Assembly: GCA_021803035.1 (NCBI GenBank)
Contig: JAJZME010000071.1
Location: 1 to 64,000 of the forward strand
Reading direction: 5' to 3'
Length of the DNA: 64,000 nt
Origin: Acidobacteriota bacterium
GTDB taxonomy: Bacteria; Acidobacteriota; Terriglobia; Terriglobales; Acidobacteriaceae
Positions within the stretch are counted from its first letter, which is position 1; the number at the start of each line of letters is the position of its first letter. Shown here piece by piece: positions 32,399 to 36,825 of this stretch. Both the position numbers and the translations under genes were made by a program. The notes beneath the pieces were generated by a model. It was given only the letters and a program-made list of their open reading frames with translations. It searched no databases and had not been told where the DNA came from.

Positions 32399-33118
32399 AT
32401 GGCGGATGATGCTGCGATTGCTTCAGGTGAGTACGATGCCACGCGCAGCAGGCGCCGCGCCTTTGTCGAGATCGCCATCGCCTATGGCCTGATTCTGCTT
32501 GTGATCTGGACGCCCCGTCCGGTGCAAAGCAAGCTCTGGTGGGTGGCTGCCGCCTCCGTTGTCGTCATCTCCGCCATCTCCTGGGACGGACTGGACGCCA
32601 TGGGCCTACGCCGGAAGAATTTTTTCCGCTCGCTGTGGATCAGCGGCGCCGCCCTGGCCGTGGCCGTGGTTGCCTGTGTGGTCGCCGCGCGGCTGCACAC
32701 GTTGCGCCTTTTCGGCGGGCCGATCTGGCTGATTAAGAACTACTGGCTCTACGCAGTGTGGTCGGGCGTCCAGCAGTATCTGCTGCAGTGCTTTTTTCTG
32801 CTGCGCATCCTGCGGTTCGTGCCCAACAAGCGCCTGGCCGCGTTTGCGGCCGCGGGCATTTTTGCCCTTGCCCACCTTCCCAATCCCATTCTCGTCTCGG
32901 CCACCATCGTGTGGGGTTTTGTAGCCTGCCTGGTTTTTCTCCGCTACCGGAATCTTTATCCGCTGGCGATTGCGCACGCCATTCTGGGCATCACGATTGC
33001 CGTCACCATTCCGGGCACCGTGGATCACAACATGCGCGTCGGCTTTGGCTATCTCACCTACAACCCGCATCGGCTCTACAGCCACACGCACTGGCCGCAC
33101 CGCTCATCGCAGCCATAG
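32399..33118 (+). CDS. CPBP-family membrane protein with Glu-to-Gln change at active site
   Basis: A 239-aa membrane protein with the CPBP (CAAX protease/bacteriocin-processing) layout: the first motif helix WSGVQQYLLQCFFLLRIL, then FALAHLPN (H159) and AIAHAILG (H193). In active members the first motif is EExxxR; here it is Gln125-Gln126, so the catalytic Glu pair is missing while both His remain. It is either a pseudoprotease or a different enzyme. Its 3' end overlaps by 15 bp with a convergent paralogue that has the full motif. Confidence 0.65.
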   Translation: MADDAAIASGEYDATRSRRRAFVEIAIAYGLILLVIWTPRPVQSKLWWVAAASVVVISAISWDGLDAMGLRRKNFFRSLWISGAALAVAVVACVVAARLHTLRLFGGPIWLIKNYWLYAVWSGVQQYLLQCFFLLRILRFVPNKRLAAFAAAGIFALAHLPNPILVSATIVWGFVACLVFLRYRNLYPLAIAHAILGITIAVTIPGTVDHNMRVGFGYLTYNPHRLYSHTHWPHRSSQP

Positions 33119-34006
33119 CGTCCAGATGGAATCCACGGTGGCGTGGGTTACCACCGAGGCGCCTACGCGCCGCCGCGCCCGCCATGCGCGCCCGTAAAAG
33201 ACGCCGGCCATGGCGGCCATCAGCACATAGCGCCAGTTGAAGTGGACCGCGCGCTTGTTGAAGTGCGCCAGCCCGAAGAGCGCCGCGGTGAGAAACAGCG
33301 CCGGGTAGCGACCCATGCGCCGTTCCAGCAGGTTTTGCAGCCAGCCGCGAAAGAACAGTTCCTCCGGCACGGCGATGAAGAAGAACGTGAAGAGCCAATC
33401 AAAGGCAATCGCCCCAAACCCCGGCCAGACGGCATGCGTGTGCAGAAAGCCCAGACCCAGGCCGACCGCCAGCGCGATGGGGGTATACCAGAGGACCTCG
33501 CGCAAGCCAATGCCGACATCGCGCAGCCGCAGGCGCAGATCGAATCCGACGCCGTCCAGTTCCCGCAGTGCCAGAAAGCCGTAGATGCCCGCATCGAGCA
33601 GGAGAATCTTGCTGAAGATGGCCAGATACGGCGGCCAGGCGCCCTGGAACCATCGCAAATCCACGGACAGCCCCAGCACGCCGAGGACGAGAAAGTCGCG
33701 CCAGTTGCCGCGCATTGCCGTATCCGCGCGCCGGGCTTGCCAGAGCAGAAGCGCAATCGCATCCGGCAGCAGCGTATAAAGCGCAAACCAGCCCCAGCGG
33801 AAGTCGCCCGCCGCGCCGGTCACCAGCAGGTAGGGAATGCACAAGACCGCCGGGCAGCCAAGCTGCGCCCATAGAGGCAGCTTGCGCACCAGCGGGTAGG
33901 TTTTTCCGGGGAAAAACGCCGCCGCCAGGAGCGGGGCAAGCGTGAGCACGGCGGCGATCAGATTCGGCGCGGTAATCAGCGAGGCAGGCATCAGTCTCAG
34001 TTTCAT
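33104..34006 (-). CDS. CPBP-family intramembrane metalloprotease
   Basis: A 300-aa membrane protein with about eight helices and a complete motif set: VPEELFFRGWLQ (E215, E216, R220), FGLAHFNK (H248) and THATVD (H288). In this family these residues bind a metal or activate water for cleaving substrates inside the membrane. The substrate is unknown. It is convergent with the degenerate paralogue, 15-bp overlap. The start ATG at 34006 has no RBS. Confidence 0.78.
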   Translation of the reverse strand: MKLRLMPASLITAPNLIAAVLTLAPLLAAAFFPGKTYPLVRKLPLWAQLGCPAVLCIPYLLVTGAAGDFRWGWFALYTLLPDAIALLLWQARRADTAMRGNWRDFLVLGVLGLSVDLRWFQGAWPPYLAIFSKILLLDAGIYGFLALRELDGVGFDLRLRLRDVGIGLREVLWYTPIALAVGLGLGFLHTHAVWPGFGAIAFDWLFTFFFIAVPEELFFRGWLQNLLERRMGRYPALFLTAALFGLAHFNKRAVHFNWRYVLMAAMAGVFYGRAWRARRRVGASVVTHATVDSIWTLWLR

Positions 34007-34125: not shown

Positions 34126-34920
34126 CTAATAGCTCTTGTAGACGGGGTTAAACTTGGGCCTGGGCTTGGTGTGAATATAGGCTGCCACGTCGTAAGCCTG
34201 CTGCGGCGAGAGCAAGCCGGGATGAGTCTGCGGCATGTTGTGAACCACGAAGCGGGCCATCTTGGATGGATTATTCATGCCCGCGCCGGTGTTATAGGAG
34301 TTGTTTCCCCAAAGCGCCGGAAACACATGCGGAACGCCGGCGCCATTTACGCCGTGGCACATGGCGCACTGCGCGCCGTAGATGGCTTTGCCGGCCACCG
34401 GATCGCCGGTCAGCGCCGGCAGGGGAACCAACCCGCGGCCCTGGTAGGGCTTGCCCTTCACGCCGCTTCTTGAGAGCCAGTCGATATAGGCAACCAGGGC
34501 GCGCATGGTCTTGCTGTTAGCGGGCGGCGGCGTTCCCGCCTCGCTGCGCACAAAGCACTCCTGGATGCGGTTTGTCAGCGTGATGACGTGGCCGGCCCTT
34601 TTGCTGTACATGGGAAAGAGCCCGGCGAGGTCGATCATCGGCGCCGAGAAGGCCTGGGTGCCGCTTTCAAGATGGCAGTCGTTGCAGGTGAGTGTGTTGC
34701 CGACATATTTCTTGGCGTATTTTGGAGTGTGATCGAAGATGAGCTGACCTTGCTGCGCCAACGCGGGCGGTGTGGCTTCCGCGATGGCCTGGTTCGTGCT
34801 TGCATTTGTGGCAGCAGAGGCAGCGGCGGCTTCGTGCCCGCACCACCCGGCGAAGGCCACGCAAAAGAGCGCGGCCGCCGCGATGAGCGGGAGACCGCTT
34901 TTTGAGTGCAGACCGTGCAT
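34126..34920 (-). CDS. TsdA-like dihaem cytochrome c
   Basis: A 264-aa periplasmic protein with a signal peptide (MHGLHSKSGLPLIAAAALF). Two haem motifs are C79-NDC-H83 and C185-AMC-H189. The first domain has TPKYAKKYVGNTLTCNDCHL, APMIDLAGLFP and RIQECFVRS, matching thiosulfate dehydrogenase TsdA; C122 is probably the thiolate axial ligand conserved there. The second domain is an ordinary class-I cytochrome c. TsdA oxidises thiosulfate to tetrathionate or runs in reverse. AGGAGGA lies before the ATG, 11 bp after the preceding gene. Confidence 0.75.
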   Translation of the reverse strand: MHGLHSKSGLPLIAAAALFCVAFAGWCGHEAAAASAATNASTNQAIAEATPPALAQQGQLIFDHTPKYAKKYVGNTLTCNDCHLESGTQAFSAPMIDLAGLFPMYSKRAGHVITLTNRIQECFVRSEAGTPPPANSKTMRALVAYIDWLSRSGVKGKPYQGRGLVPLPALTGDPVAGKAIYGAQCAMCHGVNGAGVPHVFPALWGNNSYNTGAGMNNPSKMARFVVHNMPQTHPGLLSPQQAYDVAAYIHTKPRPKFNPVYKSY

Positions 34921-34931
34921 GGATTTTCCTC

Positions 34932-35879
34932 CTACTCGGGGTGTTGCGCAACGGGCTTGAACCCAAACTGGCGATAGATCGCCTGGGCTTGAGCCGTTTT
35001 TAAAAAGTTCAGCCACGCAGCCGCCGCCGCCGGATGCGGAGCGTCTTGCATCACACCTCCAGCATAGATGGCCGTTGTATTCTGCGCGGCGGGAATGGCC
35101 ACGCCCGCGATGGGATTGCCGAGGCTCTCCTGAAAACGCACCTCCGAGGCCCAGGTCACCCCGGCATCGGCTCTGCCTTCCATGATGCGCATGGGCGTTT
35201 GCCGGTGATGAATCTCGGTGAGCAGCGTTGTGCCGGCCTTGACTTTGTCTTCGTAAACAGCCTTTTCAAGCGTATCGCCGCCGGCCTTGCGCAGCGAAGC
35301 CTGAATCTGCTTGGCCACACCTTCCCATTCCGGATTAGGCATGGACAGGCGCACGCCGGCCCGCCCCAGATCGTTGAGAGACCGGATGTGTTTGGGATTG
35401 CCGGCGTGGATCATGATGGCGAGATCGTTGGTGGTGTATGCAACGACGTGGGTGAGCTGGCCGTCTTTGCGCATTGCGCTGACGGCACGCAAGCCCGCCT
35501 CAAACACGTCGGGTTTGACCTGGATCGTCAGGTTGCCGAGGGTGAGCGTGTCATTGGCCGCGATTTGCCGGCGCAGAATTCCGGGCGGAAGCGTTTCGTA
35601 GTAGATGTGATTCTTCAGCTCGGGATGCTGACGTTCGAATGCGGCAACCAGTTGCGGCAGCACGAAGAACTGATTGCCCCCGATGAAGAGCACCAGCTTC
35701 GCGTTGGCGGGATTGCCGTGCAGATCGGGGACGTTGTCGATGTCCGGGACGCGGAAGACGTACCCCTGCACGGCGGGGTCGTTCGCGCCTTTGCTCCACG
35801 GCGGCGTGGCCTGGGCCCGCGCCAGCAGCGCGGACCCGCAGAGTAGAGATACAGCGGTAAATTGGCGTATGAAGCGCAC
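34932..35879 (-). CDS. Periplasmic solute-binding protein (ModA-like fold)
   Basis: A 315-aa exported protein (signal peptide to about RAQATPP) of the type-2 periplasmic-binding fold: KLVLFIGGNQFFVLPQLVAAFE near the N-terminus, IMIHAGNPKHIRSLNDL in the middle, WLNFLKTAQAQAIYRQFGF at the end. This resembles molybdate/tungstate-binding proteins, but no ABC permease or ATPase gene is nearby and the ligand is unknown. The start is a GTG behind AGGAGGG. It lies 18 bp after the DsrE-like gene, in one operon with TsdA-like. Confidence 0.65.
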   Translation of the reverse strand: MRFIRQFTAVSLLCGSALLARAQATPPWSKGANDPAVQGYVFRVPDIDNVPDLHGNPANAKLVLFIGGNQFFVLPQLVAAFERQHPELKNHIYYETLPPGILRRQIAANDTLTLGNLTIQVKPDVFEAGLRAVSAMRKDGQLTHVVAYTTNDLAIMIHAGNPKHIRSLNDLGRAGVRLSMPNPEWEGVAKQIQASLRKAGGDTLEKAVYEDKVKAGTTLLTEIHHRQTPMRIMEGRADAGVTWASEVRFQESLGNPIAGVAIPAAQNTTAIYAGGVMQDAPHPAAAAAWLNFLKTAQAQAIYRQFGFKPVAQHPE

Positions 35880-35897
35880 GGCTTGCGGCCCTCCTGA

Positions 35898-36614
35898 TCA
35901 AGCGGTGATGTAGGTGTAGTGGCCTTCCGACTGCAGCAGCGCGATGGCGGCAACCATGGCCGCAACAACCAGAACTCCCGGCTGCAAGTTGGCCAGAAAA
36001 TCGTTGACGATCTCATCGGGAGACTGCTTGAGATGGAAGTGCTTGATGAGCTTGCGCGACTGCTCTTCAAGAGCCGTGTGGCAGCTCAGGAACTTGACGC
36101 CGCGGGCCTGAAGCGCCTGTACGCTTGTGTCCTGATAGATGGAATCAAGATCATCCGGACTCTTCGCGTACGCTGCCGCGTTAATCGGATGCTTGGCTGG
36201 ATAGAAAAAATTGCGAACAGCCGGCTTGCCGGTAGCCGGATCGATGATGTTGAGCCATTCGCCGACGCGATATTTGGCCCAGACGGCATCGCGATAGTTC
36301 AGCATGTTGGCCGCGCCGTGCAGCGCCGCCACAACCTTCAACTCGGATTGGGGAACGTCAAAGCCGTAGTGGAGACCGTTCAGGGAGTTCTTGATGTTGT
36401 TGAGAAACACGCCGCCGCCGATCTGCGAGACGTCGTAGAGCTGCTTGACGCTGGCGGGGTTGTTGGCGAGTTTGTTGAACTCCGCAAGCTTCCATTCCGA
36501 GCCTTTCCAAACCAACTGCGCATGGGCGGGACGGGCAGAGTCGGCAACGATGCCCAGTGCGGCAATGCCGGCAACGGCGCGCGAAACAAACGATCTACGG
36601 GAGAGTGGATTCAT
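35898..36614 (-). CDS. Tat-exported DsrE-like protein
   Basis: A 238-aa protein with a twin-arginine signal (LSRRSFVSRAVAGIAALG) ending near HAQ. The body resembles DsrE/DsrF-like sulfur-relay proteins: LKVVAALHGAANMLNY, GVKFLSCHTALEEQ with a single conserved Cys (C178) placed like the sulfur-accepting Cys of that family. It is the first full gene of an operon with a solute-binding protein and a TsdA-like cytochrome, suggesting that it carries or senses a sulfur compound in the periplasm. Typical DsrE proteins are cytoplasmic, so the Tat export is notable. GGAGGACACA precedes the ATG. Confidence 0.65.
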   Translation of the reverse strand: MNPLSRRSFVSRAVAGIAALGIVADSARPAHAQLVWKGSEWKLAEFNKLANNPASVKQLYDVSQIGGGVFLNNIKNSLNGLHYGFDVPQSELKVVAALHGAANMLNYRDAVWAKYRVGEWLNIIDPATGKPAVRNFFYPAKHPINAAAYAKSPDDLDSIYQDTSVQALQARGVKFLSCHTALEEQSRKLIKHFHLKQSPDEIVNDFLANLQPGVLVVAAMVAAIALLQSEGHYTYITA

Positions 36615-36825
36615 TGTGTCCTCCTGGGAAAATAGGATGGGTGGGCTTGCGTGGGGATGCGTTTCCCAGGCTCCGGAGAAAGAGCGGCTGGGGGACGGAC
36701 GGTGGCGGCATGGGTTTGCACGGTTGCTTCCGGTCCGCGCACTCAAGGCTCCACGCGCCGGCAAGCGCGGCAAAGATCAGTGGACGCAATAACTGGAATT
36801 GTGGTGCAGCGTGCAATTGCGACAT
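36595..36825 (-). CDS. Possible small exported peptide overlapping the DsrE-like gene start
   Basis: A 76-aa frame with RBS AAGAGGAAG 6 nt before the ATG, a short hydrophobic stretch (LLRPLIFAALAGAW) and a Cys, followed by a Pro-rich tail. It overlaps the start of the DsrE-like gene by 20 bp, which could couple translation. The tail has low complexity and I do not recognise it. Confidence 0.3.
   Translation of the reverse strand: MSQLHAAPQFQLLRPLIFAALAGAWSLECADRKQPCKPMPPPSVPQPLFLRSLGNASPRKPTHPIFPGGHNESTLP

Follow-up and report, generated by a model that had tools for sequence, protein, structure and literature searches.

Two gene clusters of Acidithiobacillus ferrooxidans, AFE_0050-47 and AFE_0046-42, encode a protein with a twin-arginine translocation (Tat) signal, a periplasmic solute-binding protein (SBP) and doxDA, and a similar gene order has been noted in Gluconobacter oxydans (PMC2621215). 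AFE_0042 is reported to be a thiosulfate dehydrogenase (TSD) with an optimum pH of 2.5, and the tsd-sbp-doxDA context of A. ferrooxidans was treated as oxidative (PMC6335251). In the same 2019 review the Acidithiobacillus TSD is stated to reduce neither ubiquinone nor horse cytochrome c, and its structure and mechanism are described as still to be clarified; its electron acceptor is marked '?' in the legend to Fig. 1 of PMC10859504. Seven peatland Acidobacteria genomes were reported without tsdA (PMC6018796). A three-gene operon is described here from a 64,000-nucleotide stretch of an Acidobacteriota genome (assembly GCA_021803035.1, 3.86 Mb in 83 contigs; contig JAJZME010000071.1, positions 1 to 64,000), referred to as the window. 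The operon joins two families named thiosulfate dehydrogenase, the non-haem TSD family and the haem-containing TsdA family, with a dedicated binding protein. It probably serves extracytoplasmic thiosulfate oxidation, most likely to tetrathionate, although this assignment is held with modest confidence.

All three genes lie on the minus strand. The first (36614-35898) encodes a 238-residue protein with a predicted DsrE fold, a Tat signal and a single cysteine, Cys178, and is referred to as TSD-like on the basis of its translation, NCBIfam model NF052225 and a structure model. The second (35879-34932, GTG start) encodes a 315-residue orphan SBP of the SBP_bac_11, sulfate/molybdate type (PF13531; 6ddn), and the third (34920-34126) a 264-residue TsdA-type dihaem cytochrome c (4wqc, PF21342, haem-ligand residues). 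Each gene is preceded by an AGGAGG ribosome-binding site (36625-36620, 35895-35890 and 34933-34928, respectively, all minus strand), the last of which overlaps the stop codon of the SBP gene. The gaps between the genes are 18 bp (TSD-like/SBP) and 11 bp (SBP/cytochrome). This spacing and the strong ribosome-binding sites had been given in a preliminary description of the locus made from its sequence, and both the coordinates and the AGGAGG sites were correct when checked. The three genes are a real, conserved operon; the arrangement goes beyond chance because relatives of all three keep the same order in other genomes. No promoter emerged from a scan, and the terminator-like sites were uninformative.

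The TSD-like protein carries the Tat motif SRRSF, and C178 is the only cysteine in its translation. A Pfam scan matched no family up to E 1, PF02635 (DsrE) included. NF052225 'thiosulfate dehydrogenase' was matched at E 1.5e-24 with 86.7 bits, which fails the equivalog cut-off of 300 bits, and by this comparison the window protein is a distant, diverged relative of the NF052225 family. An AlphaFold2 model built from 12 sequences had a mean predicted local distance difference test (pLDDT) score of 80.6, with 136 of its 238 residues scoring at least 90 and residues 1-40 below 50. Foldseek utilizing this model gave no match at E 0.001 or better, and profile A1 gave no match to PDB sequences. Re-alignment of the Foldseek list with VIA-align gave 2pd2 at Z 13.2 (root mean square deviation 1.4 over 107 residues), followed by 1l1s (13.1), E. 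coli YchN (1jx7, 10.6), Syntrophomonas DsrE (8.9), 3mc3 (8.8) and 2qs7 (8.5), with the next row at only 4.3. Three of these matches are DsrE by entry title and the remaining ones presumably have the same fold. The designed cage 8uja matched the model equally (Z 13.2). A DsrE fold is assigned to the confident model because of these alignments to DsrE-type structures, and C178 is placed at the end of a strand leading into a helix.

The residues R6, R7, D61, N76, W112, N135 and C178 were invariant in 16 diverse homologues, a set of distinct rows in which loci L080, L092 and L094 exceed the NF052225 cut-off. In a wider alignment of 54 rows, which counts the window twice, repeats some genes in truncated form and includes two frameshifted loci, C178 was kept in 53; the exception is a gap at the cysteine position in frameshifted L012, and the row of frameshifted L013 is doubtfully aligned. 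The preliminary description had presented the protein as DsrE-like, with a Tat signal and a single conserved-looking cysteine. The motif is present and the cysteine is conserved among orthologues; the DsrE likeness was recovered in the structure model and not in Pfam. The two TSD-type genes that an apparent frameshift interrupts lie at L012:2556-3265 and L013:724-1391, where decay or assembly error is possible. The same genome has another TSD-type copy (L002, contig C72), which shares 49% identity with that of the window and has no binding protein or cytochrome within the 13 kb read. Proteins of the Beta-lactamase-hydrolase-like phosphatase family (PF04273) adjoin TSD-type genes at L082:4140-4697 and L086:7773-8297, and Blh is nearby in Bosea (L090).

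The binding protein matched Pfam PF13531 (SBP_bac_11) at E 8.2e-47. Its nearest solved chain was SubI (6ddn, E 8.7e-11), and the top three were all sulfate-binding proteins. A Sec-like N-terminus suggests that it is secreted. The preliminary description had found no ABC (ATP-binding cassette) partner for it, and in keeping with this a Pfam scan of seven window proteins (31.2-38.5 kb, those of the operon among them), to which the search of this genome was confined, showed no ABC permease or ATPase; no ABC partner genes are named in the annotated plasmid loci that carry this SBP. In a tree of 24 SBP rows the copy of the distant genome G002 grouped with proteobacterial copies (100/100), and branching among the own-family copies was poorly supported. 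Reading a ligand from an AlphaFold model was dropped, the model being poor (pLDDT 40.2, 6 sequences). The operon could act on another sulfur substrate (sulfite, an organic thiosulfonate or a persulfide), or its genes could be neighbours without joint function; the conserved order and the presence of thiosulfate-named families on both sides of the SBP make this distinctly improbable.

The cytochrome matched A. vinosum TsdA (4wqc) at E 7.3e-43 and contains a SoxA-TsdA domain (PF21342), a second cytochrome c domain and two CxxCH motifs. C122, within ECFVRS (haem 1), and M229 (haem 2) align with the positions of A. vinosum TsdA for which axial ligand roles are given in PMC5146829, confirming the dihaem cytochrome with a TsdA axial-Cys motif that had been recognized earlier. 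The axial Cys and distal Met were present in 53 of 53 TsdA-type rows, a count that includes the window twice and A. vinosum; the 6 of 59 aligned rows lacking both are oxidase proteins and not TsdA-type. The residue preceding the haem-2 Met is Asn in the window cytochrome, Lys208 in A. vinosum and Asn254 in C. jejuni. The C. jejuni enzyme is described as adapted to tetrathionate reduction, with the Lys/Asn position affecting direction (PMC5146829). The cytochrome is probably secreted.

Linkage was surveyed in 396 Acidobacteriota genomes, with at most 6 candidates scored per genome in searches with window queries, 7 with the TSD profile and 5 for SBP placement. The TSD profile gave 45 matches in 28 genomes at E 1e-6, the window cytochrome as query was matched in 37 genomes at E 1e-10, and 25 genomes were common to the two. 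TSD-type and cytochrome genes were within 5 kb in 21 genomes from 14 genera (with gaps of up to 10 kb allowed, no nearest gap exceeded 4.2 kb). The TSD-type gene was upstream on the same strand in 18 of these, the strands were opposite in 2 and the cytochrome came first in 1. Random placement would give ∼0.14 genomes, an expectation that assumes 4-Mb, independent genomes, which related genomes are not. The SBP was found at E 1e-30 in 7 of the 396 genomes, lying between the TSD-type and cytochrome genes in all 7. A joint function is supported by these three observations: the co-occurrence in 25 of 28 TSD genomes, the spacing in 21 and the position of the SBP.

Regions were scanned in every one of the 37 genomes that have the cytochrome. 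Relatives were present in 13 named records, all of them Acidobacteria metagenome-assembled genomes (e.g. Candidatus Acidiferrum, Edaphobacter). The TSD-SBP-cytochrome order was present in six own-family genomes (the window and L051-L055) and in L004, L005, L006 and L014; in L015 the TSD-SBP pair is followed by the contig end. The distant genome G002 (L080) has the exact three-gene order, and its TSD scores 380 bits, over the NF052225 cut-off. Conservation of the gene order, on which the preliminary description had staked its proposal, was thus found within Acidobacteriota. Downstream of the G002 operon lies a gene (L080:7542-8831) for a UshA-like protein, one part of which is a multihaem cytochrome C554. 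Genes for a cbb3-type oxidase adjoin the genes in L051, L005, L064 and L085-L089, identified by COX1 and FixO matches for L051, L064 and L087 and by three-haem profile matches and sequence resemblance for the others. Fused forms, in which a single frame holds two cytochrome c stretches as well as COX1 and FixO, are encoded at L051:3055-5670 (872 aa) and L087:6802-9339 (846 aa). A single fixed genomic site for the module was considered and dropped, the surrounding gene lists varying among relatives; the gene lists of several relatives and of plasmid loci were from a simple gene caller.

Homologues in Proteobacteria and Bacteroidota were obtained with tblastn on plasmids. The loci read were 13 of the 22 records with the SBP and 13 of the 24 with a TSD-type gene, the unread ones being often of the same species. 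A DsrE-type protein is encoded directly before the SBP in all 13 SBP loci; nine are TSD-type and four are shorter (L112, L113 and L114 match Pfam DsrE; L115 by annotation). The TSD-SBP pair was found on plasmids of Alpha- and Betaproteobacteria and the shorter-DsrE form on plasmids of Bacteroidota, so that closely related gene sets are present in three bacterial phyla. A TsdA-like cytochrome is encoded in the region read of 11 of the 13 SBP loci, with DoxD instead in Gluconobacter (L094) and Kozakia (L116). The 13 TSD-type loci contain a TsdA-like gene in 8 cases, DoxD in 2 and neither in 3 (L095, L110, L111). NF052225 scores were over the cut-off in Burkholderia L092 (397 bits) and L109 (404 bits) and in Gluconobacter L094 (342 bits). 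The order TSD-SBP-TsdA-like, sought in other phyla as the preliminary description had proposed, recurs in Proteobacteria; in most cases a further dihaem cytochrome separates the SBP from the TsdA-like gene (Burkholderia L092, L109; Paraburkholderia L106, L107; Methylobacterium L108). In Bosea (L090) the TsdA-like gene precedes the others. By annotation, Methylobacterium L108 and Acetobacter L112 also carry a cbb3-type oxidase. Plasmids of Acetobacter and Hymenobacter (L112, L114, L115) encode another, shorter binding protein after the first, and in P. fungorum L106 and L107 such a protein is encoded before the TSD-type gene. The Spirosoma SBP (L113:4977-5902) is split over two frames and absent from the gene table of its record.

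In Bradyrhizobium (L091) a SoxB-like gene and a dihaem cytochrome gene lie between the SBP and the TsdA-like gene. The SoxB-like product scored 326 bits against TIGR04486, under the cut-off of 550 (one locus tested). This gene, the single invariant cysteine of a small exported protein and the SoxA/TsdA domain of its partner are compatible with a Sox-like carrier: the cytochrome, a SoxA relative, would oxidatively conjugate thiosulfate, or sulfite/sulfane, to Cys178, the DsrE-fold protein would carry the group onward like SoxYZ, and other enzymes, such as the SoxB-like hydrolase in Bradyrhizobium, would release the product. Such a role is unlikely, given that the SoxB-likeness comes from one locus, that the own genome has no SoxB match (E 1e-3) and that the A. 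ferrooxidans TSD is reported as a tetrathionate-forming enzyme (PMC6335251). A broader form of the proposal was also considered, in which the cytochrome loads thiosulfate onto the cysteine of the exported DsrE-fold carrier, the orphan SBP delivers it and electrons pass, if the locus encodes one, directly to a dedicated oxidase of the cbb3 type, the module being an overlooked, widespread Sox-like pathway spanning Acidobacteriota, Proteobacteria and Bacteroidota (with the shorter DsrE protein in the last), partly on plasmids. Taken as a whole this is doubtful and is put forward tentatively.

For thiosulfate oxidation outside the cytoplasm, the favoured function, the following steps are proposed. 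The presumably secreted binding protein would capture thiosulfate or a polythionate and present it, feeding no ABC importer. Cys178 of the Tat-exported protein would bind thiosulfate as Cys-S-thiosulfonate, and a second thiosulfate would release tetrathionate from this adduct. Electrons would be taken by the TsdA-type cytochrome via the Cys-ligated haem 1 and haem 2 and passed to the respiratory chain, with a cbb3-type oxidase as a candidate recipient in relatives that encode one alongside. Thiosulfate as substrate is supported by the NF052225 match and by relatives over its cut-off (L080, L092, L109, L094) in the same kind of locus, and the oxidative direction by the oxidase genes beside some copies. 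The adduct is supported by a DsrE protein, DsrE3A, for which Cys-S-thiosulfonate formation from tetrathionate is described (PMC4175335). The cytochrome as partner of the TSD-like protein is supported by the '?' given as acceptor of the Acidithiobacillus TSD and by the failure of that enzyme to reduce ubiquinone or horse cytochrome c. The sulfur redox function outside the cytoplasm suggested in the preliminary description is strengthened by the NF052225 match and is partly supported overall.

Several results weigh against this assignment. A score of 86.7 bits is far under 300 and does not give isofunction with NF052225 members. Of the 45 TSD-type matches, 23 form no pair with a cytochrome, and a TSD-type match is missing from 12 of the 37 genomes with the cytochrome. 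The linkage count was itself favoured because most of the 16 rows of the TSD profile (A3) come from cytochrome-adjacent or operon loci; with the window TSD alone at E 1e-10, TSD was found in 16 genomes and beside the cytochrome in 7 (G000, G388, G273, G345, G130, G321, G107). In 8 of the 13 loci of the named records (L003, L007-L013) no SBP or cytochrome lies beside the TSD-type gene in the available DNA, which in L012 ends 0.2 kb after that gene. The supposition that TSD is always accompanied by TsdA was dropped, orphan TSD-type copies being common. No FixO, SoxB or DoxD match was found in the own genome at E 1e-3. TsdA alone is known to oxidise thiosulfate (PMC9774590), which requires no second protein. 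Two independent thiosulfate dehydrogenases, redundant or specialised in pH or affinity and without mutual action, would accommodate the separate occurrence of TSD and TsdA and the independent naming of each family (AFE_0042, PMC6335251; TsdA). Redundancy would predict less than was seen, namely TSD-type and cytochrome genes no more than 5 kb apart in 21 genomes (14 genera) and an SBP found among the 396 genomes only between the pair, and independent action is considered unlikely.

The chemistry and direction are also contested by two points. DsrE3A did not react with thiosulfate (PMC4175335), and the direction is not fixed by the haem-ligand residues, because the haem-2 Asn-Met resembles that of C. 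jejuni TsdA (PMC5146829). Both would suit a tetrathionate reductase or detoxifier in which the DsrE-fold protein accepts thiosulfonate from tetrathionate, the substrate with which DsrE3A does react. Aerobic oxidase genes neighbour several relatives, however, and the tsd-sbp-doxDA genes of A. ferrooxidans are treated as oxidative (PMC6335251); the reverse direction is judged quite unlikely.

The operon names a TsdA-type cytochrome, sometimes accompanied by an oxidase, as candidate electron acceptor for the non-haem TSD family. It also supplies that family with a fold prediction and with a cysteine that is a candidate for the reactive residue, by which the question is made testable. The distribution of the genes points to the use of thiosulfate by some Acidobacteriota, 28 of the 396 genomes having TSD-type genes, and by soil bacteria with plasmids, in which the genes are annotated as 'transcriptional initiation protein Tat' or 'hypothetical protein', or are unannotated.

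Upstream of the operon, also on the minus strand, are genes named from their sequences as CpoB-, Pal- and TolB-like. Downstream are two CAAX protease genes (Rce1-like, PF02517) at 32399-33118 (plus strand) and 33104-34006 (minus strand), which converge and overlap by 15 bp at their 3' ends. A CAAX endopeptidase gene is also the next gene to the TSD-type gene of Novosphingobium (L111).

The preliminary description had not recognised the combination of genes as a described pathway. The Tat protein, SBP and doxDA arrangement is published (PMC2621215, PMC6335251), and the pairing with a TsdA-type cytochrome was not found in the open-licence literature searched. The tsd-sbp-doxDA-rhd cluster of A. 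ferrooxidans (AFE_0042/AFE_0050) and the window operon both have a Tat protein gene followed directly by that of a periplasmic SBP (PMC2621215, PMC6335251). The third gene is doxDA in A. ferrooxidans and encodes a TsdA-type dihaem cytochrome here, and the window TSD has diverged; the likeness was drawn via synteny. In the G. oxydans copy (L094) the SBP is homologous and the TSD exceeds the cut-off of NF052225 (342 bits), from which we infer that this family, the shared synteny and the Acidithiobacillus enzyme belong together. The fold of the DsrE/DsrF superfamily (2pd2, 1l1s, 1jx7, 3mc3; VIA-align Z 13.2 to 8.5) is shared by the modelled TSD-like protein, which differs in its Tat signal, in its length, which with the signal counted exceeds that of 2pd2 by 130 residues, and in lacking a Pfam DsrE match. 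The SoxAX-SoxYZ system likewise sets a cytochrome of the SoxA family beside a small exported protein with a single cysteine; in the window the partner has a predicted DsrE fold, and SoxB was not matched in the own genome. With TsdA and TsdAB (A. vinosum 4wqc; 5lo9) the window cytochrome has in common the SoxA-TsdA domain, two CxxCH haems, the axial Cys and the distal Met, whereas Lys208 is replaced by the haem-2 Asn and the window form is associated with both a binding protein and a protein of predicted DsrE fold.

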